Assembly: GCF_014207655.1 (NCBI RefSeq)
Contig: NZ_JACHHJ010000002.1
Coordinates: 404,185-468,184 of the forward strand
From: Geomicrobium halophilum
Lineage (GTDB): Bacteria; Bacillota; Bacilli; Bacillales; Marinococcaceae
DNA length: 64,000 nt
Reading direction: 5' to 3'
A program made the translations under genes and the position numbers. The notes under the pieces are model-generated. The model was not told the DNA's origin, did not search any database, and was given only the letters and a program-made list of their open reading frames with translations. This document shows positions 20,985-30,260 of this stretch, piece by piece (within the stretch, counting starts at the first letter, position 1; every line of letters starts with the position of its first letter).

Positions 20985-22071
20985 TGCTCTCAAAAAAGAA
21001 GCCATGCCCGACACCTATCAAAAACTAAGCGAACAAAAGCTGAAGGAGCGTGCACAAGTTGCACGGGAAAAACTTGGCGAACGCTTATTCATCCCGGGTC
21101 ATCACTACCAACGCGATGAAATTATTGAGTTTGCTGACGAAACCGGGGACTCATTACAGTTGGCCCAAAGCTCAGCGAAAACCACAGCAGATTATATCGT
21201 TTTTTGCGGTGTTCACTTTATGGCAGAAACAGCTGATATTTTAACAACATCCGACCAGAAAGTCATCTTACCCGATATGAGGGCTGGGTGTTCCATGGCG
21301 GACATGGCGGATATCACTCAGACGGAGCGTGCTTGGGAAACGCTCACTGCACAGTTTGGTGATACAATCCTGCCGCTTACGTACGTGAACAGTACAGCGG
21401 CCATTAAAGCTTTTTGCGGGCGTCATGGGGGAGCGACTGTTACATCTTCGAACGCATCTGAAATGATCAAAGACGCCTTGCAGCAAAAAGAGCGACTGTT
21501 ATTTTTGCCAGATCAACACCTGGGGAGAAACACTGCGTATGATTTAGGAATTCCTTTGGAACAAATGATTGTTTGGAATCCAATCCAGGAGAAATTTGAG
21601 GGCGAGGTCAGTGATGATATCAAAATTATTCTTTGGAAAGGTCACTGTTCTGTACATGAGAAGTTTACAGTTGATTATATGGAAAAGCTACGGTCGGAGC
21701 ATGCAGACTTGCAGGTGATTGTGCATCCAGAATGCAGCTGGGAAGTCGTACAAGCAGCCGATATGGACGGATCAACGAAAAAAATTATTAATACTATTGA
21801 CGATGCCCCTTCCGGTACAACATGGGCTATTGGTACGGAGATGAATCTCGTGCATCGGCTGGCGAACACCTACAAGGATAAAACGATTATGTCACTCAAT
21901 CCGAATATGTGTCCTTGCTTAACCATGAACCGCATTGATCTTGCCCATTTCACCTGGTGCCTGGAAGAGCTTGTTGAGGGCAGGGTTGTCAATCAAATTA
22001 GTGTGGATGAAGTGATAACTGCTGAAGCGCGCACAGCTCTTGATCGTATGCTATATTCATTCGCGATATAG
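20971..22071 (+). CDS. nadA: Quinolinate synthase
   Basis: A 366-residue [4Fe-4S] enzyme condensing iminoaspartate with dihydroxyacetone phosphate. The three cluster cysteines typical of the long Bacillus-type NadA are visible in [21 protein letters not shown] and [13 protein letters not shown]. The ribosome binding site AAAGGAGGAG lies inside the end of nadC. Last gene of nadBCA, followed by a strong terminator. Confidence 0.96.
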
Positions 22072-22077
22072 GTGTAA

Positions 22078-22113
22078 AATCCCTCGATATTTCCCGGGAA
22101 ATGTCGAGGGATT
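22078..22113 (+). terminator. Terminator of nadBCA
   Basis: AATCCCTCGA pairs with TCGAGGGATT, and the loop is itself the palindrome ATTTCCCGGGAAAT, so the hairpin is nearly continuous. It begins seven bases after the nadA stop. The following sequence ATTTATG is a weak T-tract. Confidence 0.7.
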
Positions 22114-22125
22114 ATTTATGATAGT

Positions 22126-22335
22126 GCGTGTTCAAAAAGGGGGACAAAAAGAGCCGAGTAGGTCGAGAAGACAAAGTTTCATCCTGATGGCACCACGAAA
22201 GCATTCCCCTTCTCACGAAGGAAAAGGAGGTTTCTTTTTCGAGGATTTGGTTTTCATACGTGAGGAACCTTAGAAACAAGACGACAAAGTGATACAAAAG
22301 CTATTTTTTCCGGGGCTTTTTGAACAACCTCTTAT
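22126..22335 (+). repeat. Dispersed MITE-like repeat, copy 1
   Basis: About 210 bp with imperfect terminal inverted repeats: GTTCAAAAAG at 22130 and CTTTTTGAAC at 22316-22325. Internal landmarks are ACAAAAAGAGCCGAG, CACGAAAGCATTC, CTCACGAAGGAAAAGG and TTTTCATACGTGAG. The same blocks occur in the same order near 46011-46210 and, reversed, at 61345-61635. There is no coding frame shared by the copies, so it is a non-autonomous repeat. It lies just after the nadA terminator. Confidence 0.8.
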
Positions 22336-22422
22336 AGGAAGCCAAACAGATAGGGTACAATTACCTAAGGGATAACACACTTATCATCATATGGAAAGTC
22401 ATGAAAGGTGGCCTTCAGGCTA

Positions 22423-22569
22423 ATGAATGAGTTTCGGAGTTTCCTTTATAAATTGGCACGGATTCTTGGTGATGTAAATGCGGTGAAGCGTGGCAAGGTA
22501 GGTAGACTTATCGGTCGTCGTGCGGCTGGACGGGTGACGGGGCAGGCAATGAGGAAGCTGTTTAAATAA
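22423..22569 (+). CDS. Small basic conserved protein, 48 aa
   Basis: ATG 22423, with AAAGGTGG about twelve bases upstream. The product is strongly basic and glycine-rich in its second half (VKRGKVGRLIGRRAAGRVTG), with an amphipathic N-terminal helix (EFRSFLYKLARILGDV). I recall similar 45-50-residue basic proteins in Bacillaceae genomes, so it is probably a real gene, but no function is known to me. It could bind nucleic acid or membranes. Confidence 0.6.
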   Translation: MNEFRSFLYKLARILGDVNAVKRGKVGRLIGRRAAGRVTGQAMRKLFK

Positions 22570-22719
22570 CAGAGTTTTCATCAATGCGTATAATATATCG
22601 TTAAATCAATCATTCATTTATTTCTGTATTATGGTAAGGGGGGAGCACGATTATAAAGTCTAATGAGCTCTGCCTTCTTATTTCTCACTTATTAGCTTTT
22701 CCCCTACCATAAAACACTT

Positions 22720-23200
22720 TCATTCTTCTTCAAGAACAAGTGATCCTCTTGTGGCCGTGAAATGTGTGGCAGCTGAAGGCTCCATTTTAAATCCTTCTGT
22801 ATCCATTCATAATGCAAGAAATTTGAACAGCTCGTCATCCTTACTAATGTCAGTGGCAAAACAGGAGAACCTACCAACGACGAGTCCGTCTGGGCGCTGC
22901 ACTTATGATACCAATACTAAGCTTAAATTACCGGCGGACGCTACACCTAAGGAGTACTTTTTAATAATTATCCTCTTTCGTTATAAGTTGGTGTTCAATC
23001 GCTAATGTTTCCGCATATTTTAACACTTCGTAAACCCCTCCCGCGAGTTTTAGTTAAACCCACAAGACAATTCAGTATCGTATTTTACATAAAGGTAACC
23101 ATTCATATGATTTTAATAATGTTTATCCAACGCCCTTTGCATTTTCGGGATTGTTTAAAGTGGTGGTCCGACGATTCTATTGTTCGCTTTTATTCCGCTT
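22720..23200 (-). pseudogene. dsdA: Decayed D-serine dehydratase (dsdA remnant)
   Basis: Pieces of a DsdA-type protein are readable in order on the minus strand in shifting frames: YVKYDTEL, then [16 protein letters not shown] (about 23040-22985), then KYSLGVASAGN, LSIGIISA, then RPDGLVVGRFSCFATDISKD and an end fragment MDTEGFKMEPSAATHFTA. The known order of the D-serine dehydratase family is respected, but there are stops (TAA, TGA), frameshifts and a large central deletion joining the GNLGLSIG region to the C-terminal DGLAVGR region. Clearly non-functional. Two plus-strand ORFs over this stretch are antisense artefacts. Confidence 0.82.
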
Positions 23201-23225
23201 AGGTTATAAGTTGTCTTCTATGATA

Positions 23226-23288
23226 TTGACAGAATAGATAAGGAATATTAGTATTATTGTTAACGTAAATATTTATTAGGTTAACAAT
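23226..23288 (+). promoter_or_regulatory. Biotin operon control region: TTGACA -35 and BirA operator
   Basis: ATTGTTAAC-N15-GTTAACAAT at 23256-23288 is a perfect BirA-type dyad. A TTGACA hexamer at 23226-23231 lies upstream, with AT-rich -10 candidates overlapping the left BirA arm. Biotinyl-AMP-bound BirA would block transcription of the bio genes. The site is 33 bp before the remnant bioW start. Confidence 0.88.
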
Positions 23289-23320
23289 TTATCGATAGAA
23301 GGGAGAATCGATAAAAAGGA

Positions 23321-23887
23321 ATGCAAGACGGAAAGTATAATAGCGTGAGAATGAGGGCCAGTAAGAGTGCATCTCATAATGGAAAACGGCAGTCTAATTT
23401 TATGTAGGATACAATTTGAACGGGACGAGGCAAGAAAAGTGGAATCACCAAAAATAGGGCAAAGATTAGCTAAGGAGCTTTTGGATAAAACAGGTATATC
23501 GAAAAGTCTGAAAGATGAGGCACATATAATAATCACAGAAGATTCAGAGTTAGGGGAGCTATTTTAATTCTTGGAGGACTGGTTAGCCTCTGATTTTGGA
23601 AAATAGCCAAATTACTATCAAATGTTTCAAAAAAAAGACACTTGCTCTAGCCGCTAAGGTGTGTGTGAACATCCGGCAGCCGTCGCAGGGATGTTGGTTA
23701 AGTAACCCTGATTACATAACCGGATATGGTGTGCAGGTATAAATCTAGACTATCAACGAATCACGAAGTTAAAGGAATACGGAGCGAACAGAGAGGCCAT
23801 ATTTTCTTTACGAATAGCTTAGAAGATTTGAATGCGTATATAAATGATCTTGAAAAGCAACCGATCTTTGTTCAATGGGGGAAGAGC
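23321..23887 (+). pseudogene. bioW: Decayed 6-carboxyhexanoate-CoA ligase (bioW)
   Basis: BioW makes pimeloyl-CoA. The N-terminus (MQDGKYNSVRMRAS) is followed by a stop at 23405. The frame resumes as RIQFERDEARKV and GQRLAKELLDKTGIS, ends in another stop at 23565, and later LALAAKV plus NPDYITGY (about 23645-23715) and [20 protein letters not shown] (about 23800) reappear in other frames. These match Bacillus BioW in order, with at least two internal losses and several frameshifts. The final fragment runs in frame straight into bioA without a stop. Confidence 0.88.
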
Positions 23888-25237
23888 ATGACACAAAATT
23901 TAATTGAAAAGAGTAAAAACCATCTTTGGCTGCCTTTTACTCAAATGAAAGATTATGATAATGATCCGTTGATTATTGATAGTGGCAATGGCATTAAGGT
24001 GAAAGACATTGATGGGAATGAATATTATGACGGGTTTTCTTCTGTATGGCTCAATGTCCATGGCCATAGAAAAAAGGAGCTCGATCATGCCATTAAATTA
24101 CAGCTTGAGAAAATCTCCCACTCGACATTGTTAGGCATGACGAACGTCCCAGCAACGGAGCTTGCAGAAAAACTTATTAACATAAGTCCAGAACAGTTGA
24201 CACGTGTCTTTTATTCAGATAGTGGAGCAGAAGCAATGGAAATTGCTCTTAAAATGGCGTTTCAATATTGGAAAAATATTGGTAAACCAGACAAACATAA
24301 ATTTATCTCCATGCAAAATGGCTATCATGGCGACACGATTGGCGCTGTAAGTGTCGGCTCAATTGATCTCTTCCATCATGTATATGGCCCATTAATGTTT
24401 GATAGTTTCAAGTCGCCTATTCCTTATGTATATCGTTCTAAAAGTGGTAATCCAGCACAATGCCGCGATGAATGCTTATATGAACTTGAACAGTTGCTTA
24501 TTGCAAACCACGGAGAAATTGCAGCACTATCCATTGAATCGATGGTCCAAGGGGCCTCCGGCATGATTGTTATGCCAACTGGATTTTTATCAGGTGTACG
24601 TGAACTATGCACAAAATATGATGTCTTGATGATTGTTGATGAAGTGGCAACAGGCTTTGGTCGTACAGGGAAAATGTTTGCTTGCGAATACGAGAGTGTG
24701 CAGCCAGACCTGATGGCCGCTGGGAAAGGAATAACTGGCGGGTATCTGCCCATTGCTGCAACATTAACAACAGAGGAAATCTATGAAGCATTCTATGATG
24801 ATTACGAGACGCTAAAAACGTTTTTCCACGGTCATTCTTATACAGGAAATCAGCTTGGTTGTGCAGTTGCGATTGAAAATTTGCGTTTATTTGAAACAGA
24901 AACAATCATTGAACAGGTGGCCGAAAAGGCTGAAGGTCTACATTTGCTCTTGAATGAATTAGAATCCCTCCCTCATGTGGGAGATATTAGGCAGTTGGGC
25001 TTTATGTGCGGAATCGAGCTCGTACAATCAAAGGAAACAAAATTGCCGTTTCCTGCTGAAAAACGAGTGGGATATCAAGTTTCTTTAAAAATGAGAGAGC
25101 TTGGCATGCTAACGAGACCAATGGGAGATGTCATTGTTTTTATGCCTCCTCTTGCCAGTACAAGGGATGAACTAGAAGCGATGGTATCGATTATGAAGGA
25201 CGCAATCAGTGAGGTAACAAGTGTCACACTTAAGTGA
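23888..25237 (+). CDS. bioA: Adenosylmethionine-8-amino-7-oxononanoate aminotransferase (lysine-dependent Bacillus type)
   Basis: A 449-residue PLP aminotransferase making 7,8-diaminononanoate. ATG 23888 gives [19 protein letters not shown], matching the N-terminus of Bacillus subtilis BioA; upstream codons in frame are bioW debris. Marks include [40 protein letters not shown] and the PLP lysine in [12 protein letters not shown]. In B. subtilis this enzyme uses lysine rather than SAM as amino donor. Overlaps bioF by 17 bases. Confidence 0.95.
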
Positions 25238-26396
25238 ATGGCTGGAAACGCGAATAGAAAATACGAAAAAAGCAGGTTTGTATCGGGAGTTACGAACCAT
25301 GAATATGGCCCCTGAACCAGAGATGTTTATAGATGGGTGGAAACAAATCGTCTTTTCGTCCAACAATTATTTAGGATTAGCAAATGATGAACGATTGCTC
25401 GGGGAAGCCAATAAGGCTCTACTTGATTTTGGAGTCGGAAGCAGCGGATCAAGATTAACAACCGGCAACACCGAATGGCATGAACGTCTTGAAGAGAAAA
25501 TCGCAAGCTTTAAGCAAACGGAATCAGCTTTATTATTTTCTAATGGTTATTTAGCGAATGTCGGTGTACTGTCATCGTTACCTGAAAAAGGGGATGTACT
25601 TTTAAGCGATCAATTAAATCACGCGAGTATTATCGACGGCTGCCGGCTATCAAAAGCTAAAACGATTATTTATGACCATTGCGATCTAAGTGATCTTGAA
25701 GTAAAGCTGAAAGAAACAGAGCGTTATCATCGACGTTTTATTGTAACGGATGGAGTATTTAGTATGGATGGTACCATCGCACCTCTTGATAAAATCATCT
25801 CACTTGCTAAGCGTTATCATGCCTACGTAATTGTTGATGATGCCCATGCGACAGGTGTTTTGGGGGAAAATGGAAAAGGGACAAGTGAATATTTCGGAGT
25901 CTCTCCTGATATAGTCATTGGTACCTTAAGTAAAGCCGTTGGTACAGAAGGCGGTTTTGTCGCGGGATCGAAGGCATTGATTGACTTTCTGTTAAACCAT
26001 GCCAGAACGTTTATCTTTCAAACAGCTATCCCGCCAGCCAGCTGTGCCGCTTCCTTTGCAGCCTTGGAGGTGATGGAACATAGTAAGGAAAAGCGCAACC
26101 TGCTGTTTTCACATGTCAAAAAGATACAAGCTAGCTTAAAACAAATGGGATATAACGTGAAGGGGGAGATTACCCCTATTATTCCTGTGATCATTGGGGA
26201 CGCCGAAAAAGCTGTCAAATTTGCGGAAGGGCTGCAGGCAAAAGGAATATACGCCTCAGCTATTCGTCCACCAACTGTTGCAAAAGGAGAAAGTCGTATC
26301 CGGTTAACAATCACTACTGACCATGATTCCAAAGAGATCGATTACCTGGTAGAGGTATTTAATTTAATCGGAAAAGAGTTGAACTTGATTAAATGA
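25221..26396 (+). CDS. bioF: 8-amino-7-oxononanoate synthase
   Basis: A 391-residue alpha-oxoamine synthase joining pimeloyl-CoA (or -ACP) and alanine. GTG 25221 follows GTGAGGTAAC inside bioA. Conserved blocks are [44 protein letters not shown] and the PLP lysine in [12 protein letters not shown]. Normal length. It would depend on a pimeloyl donor not made by the dead bioW. Confidence 0.95.
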
Positions 26397-27094
26397 ATGG
26401 CATTTTTGTAACAGGCACTGATACTGGAGTTGGAAAAACCATTATATCTTGTGGACTTGCAGCTGTATTTAAAGAAAAAAAGATGGATACTGGTGTGTTT
26501 AAACCATTTTTAAGCGGTATTTCTCGTTACGATCCAGAAAGCGATACCTATTTAATGAAGCAAATGTCACAAACACCTCTTTCCATAGAGGACATTACCC
26601 CTTTTGAATTCAAGGAACCACTTGCTCCGTACGTTGCTGGGAAATTGGAAGGGAAGGAAGTTCGCATTGAGGAAGTATTGTGTCACTGCGAGAGAATCAG
26701 TAAAAGACACGAGTATTTTATTGTAGAAGGTGCTGGCGGGATCTCAGTACCGCTAGCTGAAAGTCTCTTAGTCAGTGATTTAATCAAAGCTTTGCAGATG
26801 CCAATTCTTATAGTAGCTCGACCCGATCTTGGGACGATTAATCACACGTTTCTAACCGTTCAATATGCAACAAGCATAGGTCTGAAGATCGCAGGAATCG
26901 TGATAAACGGAATGAGTGATCGTCTCGACCTCGCTGTAGAAACAAACCCAAGAATAATAGAAGAGTTATGCGGTGTGCCCATTGTAGGTATAACACCAAA
27001 GCTTGAAGAGCTAACAAAAGAAAGTGTTCAAAAAATGGTTAGTGATAATCTTGACATTACATTACTGATGGATCAGTGGGGGGTAGGAAAATGA
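26393..27094 (+). CDS. bioD: Dethiobiotin synthetase
   Basis: A 233-residue ATP-dependent carboxylase closing the ureido ring. The P-loop GTDTGVGKT is at residues about 6-14, the KPFLSG substrate loop near 38-43, and EGAGGISVPL near 115. ATG overlaps the bioF stop (ATGA), and its own end overlaps the bioB start by four bases. Confidence 0.95.
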   Translation: MNGIFVTGTDTGVGKTIISCGLAAVFKEKKMDTGVFKPFLSGISRYDPESDTYLMKQMSQTPLSIEDITPFEFKEPLAPYVAGKLEGKEVRIEEVLCHCERISKRHEYFIVEGAGGISVPLAESLLVSDLIKALQMPILIVARPDLGTINHTFLTVQYATSIGLKIAGIVINGMSDRLDLAVETNPRIIEELCGVPIVGITPKLEELTKESVQKMVSDNLDITLLMDQWGVGK

Positions 27095-28095
27095 ATCAAT
27101 GGATGGAACTTGCAGATCGAGTGTTGGATGGTGGGGAAGTAAAAAATGAAGAAGCACTTTCAATTTTGGAATGCCCAGATGAAAATATTCTTCTGCTTAT
27201 GCACGCTGCTTTCCAAATTAGAAAGCAGTTTTACGGAAAAAAAGTAAAACTTAATATGATTATGAATGCGAAGTCTGGATTATGTCCGGAAAATTGCGGC
27301 TATTGTGCTCAGTCTATAATTTCAAAGGCAGCGATTGATTCCTATAGATTTGTAGATAAGGATACTCTTTTAGAAGGTGCAAAGCGTGCGCATGATTTAA
27401 ATATAGGAACGTACTGTATCGTTGCTAGCGGCAGAGGACCATCTAATAGAGAAGTTGACAAAGTGGTTGAAGCAGTAAAAGAAATCAAGGACACATATGG
27501 ATTAAAAATTTGTGCATGTCTTGGATTGTTAAACCCTGAGCAAGCGAACAGACTAAAAGAAGCCGGGATCGATCGTTACAATCATAATATTAATACATCA
27601 AAGAGCAACCATCCAAACATTACAACTTCCCATACATACGATGACCGAGTTAATACAGTGGAAGTAGCGAAAGACTCCGGAATGTCTCCATGTTCAGGTG
27701 TCATTGTAGGTATGAAAGAAACAAAGCAAGAGGTAGTCGATATGGCTAACAGTTTAAAACTTCTTAATGCAGACTCAATTCCAGTAAATTTTTTATATGC
27801 TATTGATGGGACTCCGCTAGAAGGAGTGAATGAATTAAATCCCCTCTATTGCCTGAAAGTTTTGGCGTTATTCCGTTTTATCAATCCAACTAAAGAAATT
27901 CGAATTTCAGGCGGACGTGAAGTAAATCTTCGTTCCCTACAGCCATTGGGCCTATATGCGGCCAATTCCATCTTCGTTGGCGATTACTTAACAACAGGGG
28001 GACAAGAAGAAACCAAAGATCATAAAATGTTACTTGACTTAGGGTTTGAGGTGGAGTCCGTAGAAGAAATGAAAGCCAGCTTAGCAGAAAAATAA
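27091..28095 (+). CDS. bioB: Biotin synthase
   Basis: A 334-residue radical-SAM enzyme inserting sulfur into dethiobiotin. The [4Fe-4S]-SAM motif is CPENCGYCAQS near residue 68. [2Fe-2S] ligands include the later Cys residues in CACLGLL and SPCSGVIVGM, and the Arg of RISGGREVNLR is present. ATG 27091 is used (MNQWMELADRVLDGG, as in B. subtilis) rather than GTG 27076. Last gene of the operon; bioI, which follows in B. subtilis, is not seen downstream. Confidence 0.95.
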   Translation: MNQWMELADRVLDGGEVKNEEALSILECPDENILLLMHAAFQIRKQFYGKKVKLNMIMNAKSGLCPENCGYCAQSIISKAAIDSYRFVDKDTLLEGAKRAHDLNIGTYCIVASGRGPSNREVDKVVEAVKEIKDTYGLKICACLGLLNPEQANRLKEAGIDRYNHNINTSKSNHPNITTSHTYDDRVNTVEVAKDSGMSPCSGVIVGMKETKQEVVDMANSLKLLNADSIPVNFLYAIDGTPLEGVNELNPLYCLKVLALFRFINPTKEIRISGGREVNLRSLQPLGLYAANSIFVGDYLTTGGQEETKDHKMLLDLGFEVESVEEMKASLAEK

Positions 28096-28359
28096 GGTAT
28101 GTATTTGAATGAGGCTATACATCCTCTGTAAAAACAAACAATATCATTTTAATAGATCCAACAGATTTTAAAATAGGTTTATGGTTCGCCCAAGAATTGT
28201 TGAAATTCTTGAATGAATCATGCGTTGGCATTACGAAAGTTTCCAATAAGACAGACCATAAGAAGATATAAGTTAAGGACTGCTTATGACCGGCAGCTTA
28301 ACGGATTTTTCTACTTGAAGAGGCTGTCCTATAAGCAGTTGGTTTAATCCTAAAAAGTA
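28096..28359. other. Gene-free stretch after bioB with an inverted repeat
   Basis: I see no credible coding frame. ACTGCTTAT at 28279-28287 pairs with ATAAGCAGT at 28331-28339, and adjacent bases GGCAGC / GGCTGTCC extend the symmetry partly. It may be an extra terminator or the footprint of a lost mobile element. Confidence 0.4.
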
Positions 28360-28400
28360 ATCCCGTATCACTGTAAAAGTGGTACGGGATCGCTTTTTTA
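28360..28400. terminator. Bidirectional terminator between bioB and the M4 protease gene
   Basis: ATCCCGTATCACT pairs with AGTGGTACGGGAT (one G-T wobble) around a 5-base loop, followed by CGCTTTTTTA on the plus strand and ATTACTTTTTA on the minus strand. The two flanking genes converge here. Confidence 0.85.
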
Positions 28401-28469
28401 GAGGCGATTTTAGCTATTATAGCGGGTTGAAATTATAAGGACTTTGGATAGCCCCTATGCATTAAAGCT

Positions 28470-30260
28470 TTATTCAATCCCCACACCATCAAAGCCAGAT
28501 CTGGTAGCCTCTGTTTGTTCACTATCTTCTCCGTAGAGGTCGATAGCTGACTGAACGAAGGCAAAGCGGGTATCATCAAAGTCGGACAAAGGAGCTAAAT
28601 AAGTGGTTAAGGCACGATAGGTGATTTGTCCAAGATCCTCACGTCCGATGTCTTGTCCGATGAGGTAAGCGGCATGGTTAATAATGGATGAGTTGGTATG
28701 AACCCCGCCTCTATCTAGCGTAATTGGCAAGTCATAATATTCGTCCATGTGTGAAGGATATCCCCCTGATCCATCTCCATATTCCCAATAATCCTCATCT
28801 ACTTCAAATTGGCCGGGATCTTCAAGACTCCTCAACGCAAAACGGCCGTCTTCAATAGCAGCTGGCGCCATCACGTCTTCACCGACGTGCCAGCTGGAAT
28901 CATCGACGAGTACTCCAAATATGTCGGACATGGCTTCATTTACTGCACCGGATTGAAAACGATAAACCAGTCCAGCTGTATGGGTTGTAACACCGTGAGT
29001 AATTTCATGGGCAGCAACATCAAGACCCGCTGAAAGGGGAATAAAAAATTCTCCGTCACCATCCCCATAGGTCATCTGATTTCCGTTCCAAAAAGCATTA
29101 CCAAAGTCTTCGCCGTAATGGACGGTAGATACAAGGGCCATCCCTTCATCATCGATGGAGTTTCGGTCATGTTCTTCTAAGAAATATTCATAGACTTTAG
29201 TTGAATTATAATGGGCATCTACCGCAGCAGCATGGGATTCATCTCTAAAGTTAAATGCAGCATTGACATTGGAATAAGGAACACCCGGCAAATTGAAATC
29301 CTCGCTTGGCCATTGATGTTTAAAATCGTAAGTAAAGATTCCGTCTAAGTCAGGAACAGAAAAATCTAGCAAACTGAACGTTCTGCCCTGCCTTTCTTCT
29401 GCTGGTTTATGGGAAATGTTCAACACGCGATTATCGCCATGTACGCCTATTCCGGGCCCGGACGCGGATTGATATTGCTCAGGGTCTAGTTCGTCTGGAG
29501 ATTGTGCAGCAAAAGCCTCTATTTGTTGCTCTTGGTTATTTTCCTCGTTTGACATTTGCTCGGTTTCTAGTCCTGCTGATTCAGCCAAATCGGAAATGGT
29601 ATCGTATTTGTCAAGCACTTCTCCATCCATTGCATCAACAAAAACAAACCAATTCCCTGGATCTTCCGTCAAGTAATTAATGTTTACTTTATAAACGAGG
29701 TGTCCCTCTCCATCTAATGGATACACCACTAACTCTGAAGTGGGCTCTTCTTCTAACGTTTCAGGAGCTGAAACGGCATTGCGAGCGATATCGAAGGCTT
29801 GATTCTCTGAAACACTTGCATCTGTATCCATTTCCATTTGATCGATGTGTGTATGGAAATGGCCGTTCACTGTTTGAACACGATTTTCTTCATTAAAATG
29901 GACAATAACTTGGTGCCCTTCAACAGGTACGCCATCTTTCAATTGCTGTAAGCGAACGTGAGTCATTTCTTCGTCATCGGTCCATTCCTCTAATACTTTA
30001 AAGTCCTCGGATGGGTTCTGCATGTCAAAGAGACTTTTGTTTGTTTCTAAAAAATTCTTAGCCGCATCAGCATCACTTGCTTGACTCCTGAGCGAGCGCT
30101 GCATTTGAAAAGCAGTGTCCTCTTGTTGGTAAAGAATTCTGGAATCTTCACTGTTTTCTTCCGGAACTTCTTTTTCTGACTCAGCAAAAGCTCCATTGCC
30201 CATTATAAGCCCCATTACTAACGTCATCGATAAACAGCTTGTCCACTTCTTTTTAGACAT
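28470..30260 (-). CDS. Secreted M4-family zinc metalloprotease (bacillolysin/thermolysin type)
   Basis: A 596-residue preproprotein. A signal peptide with basic start and hydrophobic core ends near AFA26. An FTP/PepSY propeptide covers roughly residues 45-215. The catalytic domain contains the zinc motif HEITH (about residue 417), the third ligand in GAVNEAMSD and the catalytic His in DRGGVHTNSSI. The mature region is rich in Asp and Glu, as in halophile exoenzymes. The chain has the full M4 domain order. ATG is preceded by AGGAGGAGAG. A dyad overlapping a TTGACA lies 110-130 bp upstream. Confidence 0.93.
   Translation of the reverse strand: MSKKKWTSCLSMTLVMGLIMGNGAFAESEKEVPEENSEDSRILYQQEDTAFQMQRSLRSQASDADAAKNFLETNKSLFDMQNPSEDFKVLEEWTDDEEMTHVRLQQLKDGVPVEGHQVIVHFNEENRVQTVNGHFHTHIDQMEMDTDASVSENQAFDIARNAVSAPETLEEEPTSELVVYPLDGEGHLVYKVNINYLTEDPGNWFVFVDAMDGEVLDKYDTISDLAESAGLETEQMSNEENNQEQQIEAFAAQSPDELDPEQYQSASGPGIGVHGDNRVLNISHKPAEERQGRTFSLLDFSVPDLDGIFTYDFKHQWPSEDFNLPGVPYSNVNAAFNFRDESHAAAVDAHYNSTKVYEYFLEEHDRNSIDDEGMALVSTVHYGEDFGNAFWNGNQMTYGDGDGEFFIPLSAGLDVAAHEITHGVTTHTAGLVYRFQSGAVNEAMSDIFGVLVDDSSWHVGEDVMAPAAIEDGRFALRSLEDPGQFEVDEDYWEYGDGSGGYPSHMDEYYDLPITLDRGGVHTNSSIINHAAYLIGQDIGREDLGQITYRALTTYLAPLSDFDDTRFAFVQSAIDLYGEDSEQTEATRSGFDGVGIE

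Follow-up and report, generated by a model that had tools for sequence, protein, structure and literature searches.

The biotin operon in a 64,000-nucleotide (nt) stretch of the Geomicrobium halophilum genome (the window) begins with a ruined bioW, the gene for pimeloyl-coenzyme A (CoA) synthetase, followed by bioA, bioF, bioD and bioB in open, overlapping frames, in that order. Judged from its substitutions, bioW is long dead, its relic drifting neutrally about as fast as silent positions change; by the same kind of evidence bioAFDB, BioF included, is still under purifying selection, with little or no relaxation. BioF couples alanine to a pimeloyl thioester. The constraint on BioF therefore argues for the presence of such a thioester inside the cell, since an importer of 7-keto-8-aminopelargonate or of a later intermediate has no use for BioF, and we consider it moderately probable that some source of pimeloyl thioester other than BioW exists.

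Pairwise alignment of the relic with five intact bioW genes disclosed 13, 15, 16, 16 and 17 indels. The lesions include a 77-nt deletion (four of the five comparisons), changes of −11, +2, −2, +2 and −1 nt, and others, and TAG codons stand in frame at position 23604 in all five comparisons and at 23405 in four. The identity of the relic is supported by tblastn matches from 12 of 13 intact BioW proteins (E ≤ 1e-3); PF03744 gave no match in the host genome, as the relic is too badly damaged to score. Codon positions were compared over 442 alignment columns (MAFFT), starting at reference codon 81. Where 11 relatives are invariant, the relic is changed at 11/68 first, 12/87 second and 2/14 third positions (16, 14 and 14%), against 0–8%, 0–5% and 0–26%, respectively, when each of 11 intact bioW genes was left out in turn. 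Equal rates across the three positions, the third-position count being small, point to neutral drift of the relic.

The four downstream genes present a different pattern. All exceed their NCBIfam equivalog cut-offs, and their 4.2 kb contain no frame-breaking indel. Invariance was defined by 11 relatives in the case of bioA, by 10 for both bioF and bioD, and by 8 for bioB, short copies and those not adjoining bioA having been dropped; at such sites the window differs at 27/874 first, 17/1095 second and 24/171 third positions (3.1, 1.6 and 14.0%). At first and second positions combined, the contrast between relic (23/155) and bioAFDB (44/1969) is strong (Fisher test, p = 5e-11), and bioF taken singly shows 12/470 changes. 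Compared with three named relatives, the window gave ratios of nonsynonymous to synonymous substitution rates (dN/dS) of 0.08–0.09 for bioA, 0.14–0.20 for bioF and 0.18–0.22 for bioD, and of 0.07 for bioB against one relative. Pairs without the window and genome G016 gave 0.06–0.10, 0.13–0.16, 0.11–0.23 and 0.04–0.07 for bioA, bioF, bioD and bioB; one of these pairs (L018–L016) includes Peribacillus cavernae, itself without a working bioW, and the ratios are rough, with synonymous sites near saturation in the more distant pairs.

Searches for the known pimeloyl routes covered the host genome, a 3.51-Mb Bacillales genome in 11 contigs (the window lies in contig C2) that scores 100% complete and 2.34% contaminated, and 100 relatives, none from the host genus, giving 101 genomes with the host. 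No BioW was found in the host by profile search. BioI had no match there, the control Metabacillus arenae giving one of 65% identity, and no bioI lies between bioB and the next gene. The best BioC match reached 80.6 bits, under the TIGR02072 cut-off of 184.95 that 12 of the 101 genomes pass. A BioZ-like second full FabH, judged by the FabH model TIGR00747 rather than a BioZ-specific one, was likewise missing, with one match above the cut-off (393.3 bits) and three others at 49.7, 33.2 and 22.5 bits. The preliminary description had described a bioW broken by stops, frameshifts and deletions before an intact bioA-F-D-B and without bioI, all of which holds; the genome search that it proposed for a second bioW, bioI, bioC or bioZ, now run, found none. 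BioI-like P450s of 39–42% identity occur in genome G035, Halobacillus karajensis and Thalassobacillus cyri, and a P450 signature in 34 of 80 named BioA loci. A further pimelate route runs through BioE, a diiron oxygenase (PMC12915131). Elsewhere in the host, a gene on contig C4 (L196:3736-6011) encodes a BioF-like protein that scores 419.9 bits, short of the BioF cut-off, and adjoins an epimerase-like gene; by eye, the pair is probably glycine C-acetyltransferase and threonine dehydrogenase.

The BirA operator, TTGTTAAC-N15-GTTAACAA, was previously called perfect. This is true of its two 8-base arms, which have no mismatch; the dyad is broken at the next inner base (G/G), leaving 8/9 positions per arm symmetrical. 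A search of the window allowing up to two mismatches returned this one match versus 0.02 expected by chance. With a looser pattern the bio operator, which matches on both strands, was the single site in the whole genome, with none for the reversed control, and a still looser pattern added a site before a bioY elsewhere in the host. A promoter-like TTGACA-17-TAGTAT abuts the operator. The scanned stretch held 19 such sites versus 17.0 expected, and it is position that backs the bio promoter; P. cavernae has TTGACA-17-TAATAT at the corresponding place (by eye).

Similar arms, TTGTAAAC and GTTTACAA, with the same N15 spacing, lie directly 5' of bioA in G016. The first looser pattern matched 5' of bioA or its operon in the host, G016, P. 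cavernae, T. cyri and genome G040, and gave no match there in G035, G079 or H. karajensis. In G079 a still looser pattern found a site between bioA and bioB; at this locus (L137:7150-12491) bioA-F-D and bioB-bioY diverge with the BirA-like site between them, another arrangement of the same genes. Over nine genomes, both strands counted, the reversed pattern gave 5 matches and the real one 15, so an isolated match not near a bio gene carries little weight. One BirA-like site in G016 (L198:6188) falls just 5' of an apparent energy-coupling factor (ECF) transporter energy module, named by eye, near ribosomal protein genes.

The state of the window recurs. Among the 101 genomes, BioW exceeded its cut-off in 13, BioC in 12, BioF in 48 and BioB in 68, and BioA, called at a score of at least 418 bits, in 33 (the next score was 285). 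BioA, BioF and BioB occur together in 29 genomes (a hand tally of the tables, with BioD left out), of which 13 have BioW, 11 have BioC, none has both, and five, namely the host, G016, G035, G040 and G079, have neither. In P. cavernae L5 (L018:9676-9984) a bioW relic stands 5' of intact bioA, bioF and bioD, with lesions of +1, −1, −4 and −419 nt against two of three references. H. karajensis and T. cyri have no BioW, and neither they nor P. cavernae have a BioC over the cut-off; Metabacillus arenae and Domibacillus mangrovi, searched alongside, have intact BioW.

In the BioA tree, P. cavernae groups with BioW-bearing genera in a starred clade separate from the window; the sister of the window is G016, with weak support (83/73), and the label "relic" needs two changes. 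A single relic shared by the window and P. cavernae is disfavoured on two grounds, the separation in the tree and the differing lesions: those of the window near codons 203, 221 and 253 are not in P. cavernae, and the 4-nt deletion of P. cavernae at codon 48 is not in the window. Elsewhere each relic has lost the stretch holding the other's lesions, and from the lesions alone a first one may be common to both. A bioW loss common to the window and G016 is possible; G016 retains no relic. The Halobacillus–Thalassobacillus part is compatible either with several losses or with a loss followed by a regain. The activation step appears to have been lost long ago and stably while the remaining pathway was retained, and such a loss has probably occurred more than once. 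No replacement gene adjoining bioAFDB was recognized by eye in the BioW-less loci L135–L139, L018, L050 and L069. The genes upstream of bioAFDB in G016 look like a thiamine-type ECF cluster.

A candidate source lies beside one of the host's bioY genes. At L194 7570-10827, bioY is followed by an adenosine monophosphate-forming acyl-CoA ligase (510 aa) and a thiolase (383 aa), and a BirA-like TGTTAAC-N15-GTTAAC, weaker than the bio operator, precedes bioY at L194 7538. BioY was present in all 12 genomes examined; T. cyri, G040, G079 and M. arenae have BirA-like sites 5' of bioY genes other than those of such a row. The three-gene row recurs in P. cavernae and, with a short-chain dehydrogenase/reductase after it, in T. 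cyri and G079. No such row adjoined bioY in G016, G040, G035 or H. karajensis (where one short BioY fragment was left out of the inspection), the rest of those genomes not having been searched for the pair. The host ligase scores 437 bits against the PRK07638 cut-off of 518 and the thiolase 443.8 against the PRK06690 cut-off of 498, both below; the thiolase passes the general model TIGR01930, and the P. cavernae ligase (662) is above the PRK07638 cut-off. We take PRK07638 and PRK06690 to be the models for YhfT and YhfS, and from order and kind we infer that the host row corresponds to yhfT and yhfS.

S161, G162, T164 and K484, presumably part of the catalytic motifs, are invariant in an alignment of eight ligases. 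The thiolase (L194:9676-10827) keeps C86 and has Gly 369, found in 8/8 copies, where three aligned solved thiolases have a Cys that we take to be the second catalytic cysteine. The chemistry of the bioY-linked thiolase may, from this replacement, be unlike that of an ordinary thiolase; the enzyme may transfer acyl groups rather than cleave or condense, for example pimeloyl from acyl carrier protein (ACP) to CoA. Rodionov and others reportedly made a comparative study of the BirA regulon (Genome Research, 2002), which may discuss yhfS-yhfT. In Staphylococcus aureus yhfS-yhfT is repressed by BirA, and its function is described only as putative (PMC6391492). Two other ligases were noted: one upstream at the Thalassobacillus locus L069 6534-8117, with 181 bits to the host ligase, and one of 129 bits in G035 (no BioW, no BioC; L218:2946-6321), 1.2 kb from bioY and without a thiolase.

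We propose as the ancestor a bioWAFDBI operon like that of Bacillus subtilis. In this account bioW would have been inactivated long ago, leaving a neutral relic in the leader, and bioI would have been lost; bioAFDB would be transcribed from the BirA-controlled promoter, biotin being made when scarce, and the cell would hold pimeloyl-CoA, or pimeloyl-ACP if its BioF accepts that. The putative source would be neither BioW nor BioC/BioH nor, as far as tested, BioZ. The likeliest kind would be a different acyl-CoA ligase whose substrate is pimelate or some longer diacid, with the ligase of the row behind the BirA-like site as the best candidate. That the pimeloyl group is obtained another way was one option of the preliminary description, and it fits best the combination of a constrained bioF with no BioW, no BioC over the cut-off, no BioI and no second full FabH. 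The more specific proposal, in which a yhfT-yhfS-type pair beside bioY gives Bacillales a second and unrecognised route to pimeloyl thioester and has let bioW die more than once while BioF was still needed, is unlikely.

Several observations weigh against this account. The row is beside bioY in only four of the eight BioW-less genomes, host included; the ligase–thiolase pair is in all four BioW-bearing genomes examined (M. arenae, G030, G002 and G078); with the pattern used, a BirA-like site precedes the row in one of eight copies, that of the host. B. subtilis has the pair yet needs BioW (PMC11089781), so the pair alone is no general substitute, and its substrate or its expression would have to differ. 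The host has two BioY genes and could live on imported biotin. At invariant first and second positions the window's rate tops all rows in bioF (12/470 versus at most 12/482) and bioD (10/277 versus at most 10/287) by narrow margins and in bioB (14/545 versus at most 10/556) by a clearer one, and bioAFDB may on these counts be mildly relaxed; the summed rate is 2.2%, with 2.1% in B. spizizenii, 1.8% in M. arenae and 1.7% in Niallia endozanthoxylica. The two BioY genes and these top-of-range rates also speak for a decaying pathway, in which imported biotin sustains the cell and the loss of bioW came first, with that of bioAFDB soon to follow, as does the auxotrophy of natto strains of B. subtilis defective in bioW and bioF (PMC4624242). 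We regard decay as quite unlikely: the relic is changed at about 15% of conserved positions, yet the four genes keep unbroken frames and near-normal dN/dS, and the operator is intact. Nor do the data support the earlier picture of a lineage caught between prototrophy and auxotrophy, given the old neutral relic, the little or no relaxation downstream and the recurrence of the state in other lineages.

Salvage would have 7-keto-8-aminopelargonate, diaminopelargonate or desthiobiotin come from neighbours and be finished by BioA, BioD and BioB, with BioF a passenger. For nasal bacteria whose pathways are broken, release and uptake of intermediates has been suggested (PMC12642757), and bioF overlaps bioA and bioD, so its breakage could harm its neighbours. 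The low rate of change in bioF beside that of the relic stands against a passenger role, as does Roseburia intestinalis, a proposed user of later precursors that has neither bioF nor bioW (PMC7478625). We find salvage doubtful, and the exogenous 7-keto-type intermediates of the preliminary description are disfavoured: BioF would be useless and should decay like bioW. That an intact bioW was misassembled or misread, an option raised in the preliminary description, has negligible probability. Nothing was found for it, neighbouring genes on the same contig are clean, and it is ruled out by the 13–17 indels, the large deletions, the in-frame stops and the roughly 15% change at conserved sites, spread evenly over all codon positions. 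A source other than BioW is the preferred explanation.

Upstream of the operon (Table 1) lie nadB-nadC-nadA and then about 1.15 kb of short open reading frames (ORFs). This gap, from nadA to the bio promoter (22072-23225), has ORFs of at most 84 aa and is possibly another decayed gene; two short ORFs scanned there gave no Pfam match above cut-off. Downstream of the hairpin is an M4 metalloprotease gene on the opposite strand. Terminator-like sites in the scanned stretch numbered 7 versus 5.1 expected, and no Rfam leader or riboswitch reached the gathering threshold in 22000-28600.

Table 1. Features of the biotin operon, in window coordinates
Feature	Coordinates	Strand	Basis
Promoter-like TTGACA-17-TAGTAT	23226..23254	+	Consensus scan and position
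BirA operator	23257..23287	.	0 mismatches in two 8-base arms
bioW pseudogene (pimeloyl-CoA synthetase)	23321..23887	+	Indels; in-frame TAG at 23604 and 23405
bioA, intact, 449 aa	23888..25237	+	TIGR00508, 555.8 bits (cut-off 405)
bioF, intact, 391 aa	25221..26396	+	TIGR00858, 490 bits (cut-off 426.45); overlaps bioA end
bioD, intact, 233 aa	26393..27094	+	TIGR00347, 195.6 bits (cut-off 83.3)
bioB, intact, 339 aa	27076..28095	+	TIGR00433, 405.2 bits (cut-off 225)
Terminator-like hairpin 3' of bioB	28360..28390	+	Site scan

Organisms that lack BioW and still select for BioF amount to natural knock-outs, from which the enzyme supplying the pimeloyl thioester in place of BioW could be learned. They are a caution against calling prototrophy or auxotrophy for biotin by bioW or bioC alone, for instance in community models. 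They also bear on where Bacillus gets its pimelate, still open according to a review (PMC11089781), which gives BioF of B. subtilis as taking pimeloyl-CoA only, BioW as essential, BioI as dispensable and the origin of pimelic acid as unsettled.

The closest known system is bioWAFDBI of B. subtilis, which shares with the host the order W-A-F-D-B and a BirA operator before the first gene; BioA from loci of the B. subtilis group is 81–85% identical to that of the host. Unlike that operon, the host has a relic for bioW and no bioI found in the genome. B. subtilis natto resembles the host in a naturally inactivated bioW with other bio genes kept; it carries one bioW nonsense mutation and a large bioF deletion, whereas the host has an old relic and an intact, constrained bioF (PMC4624242). 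The same paper presents strain ThaB as prototrophic despite a bioW nonsense mutation while reporting the bioF deletion in all eight strains, and we do not rely on this point. Roseburia intestinalis, like the host, has the lower genes bioA, bioD and bioB without bioW; it lacks bioF, as expected of precursor use, whereas the host keeps it (PMC7478625). Nitrososphaera gargensis bioFADB is, like the host operon, a complete lower pathway without annotated bioW or bioC; a BioH-like esterase is proposed there, while in the host no BioC was found and a bioW relic remains (PMC6138646). BirA-controlled bioY and yhfS-yhfT in S. aureus (PMC6391492) and B. subtilis (PMC11089781) have their likeness in the host's bioY, ligase and thiolase behind a BirA-like site; the host proteins score below the PRK07638 and PRK06690 cut-offs, the likeness being one of order and kind. 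Among the matches listed from Creative Commons-licensed full texts, none dealt with the loss of bioW alongside retention of bioF in Bacillales. The pieces are all of known kinds, and the new part is their combination and what it implies.
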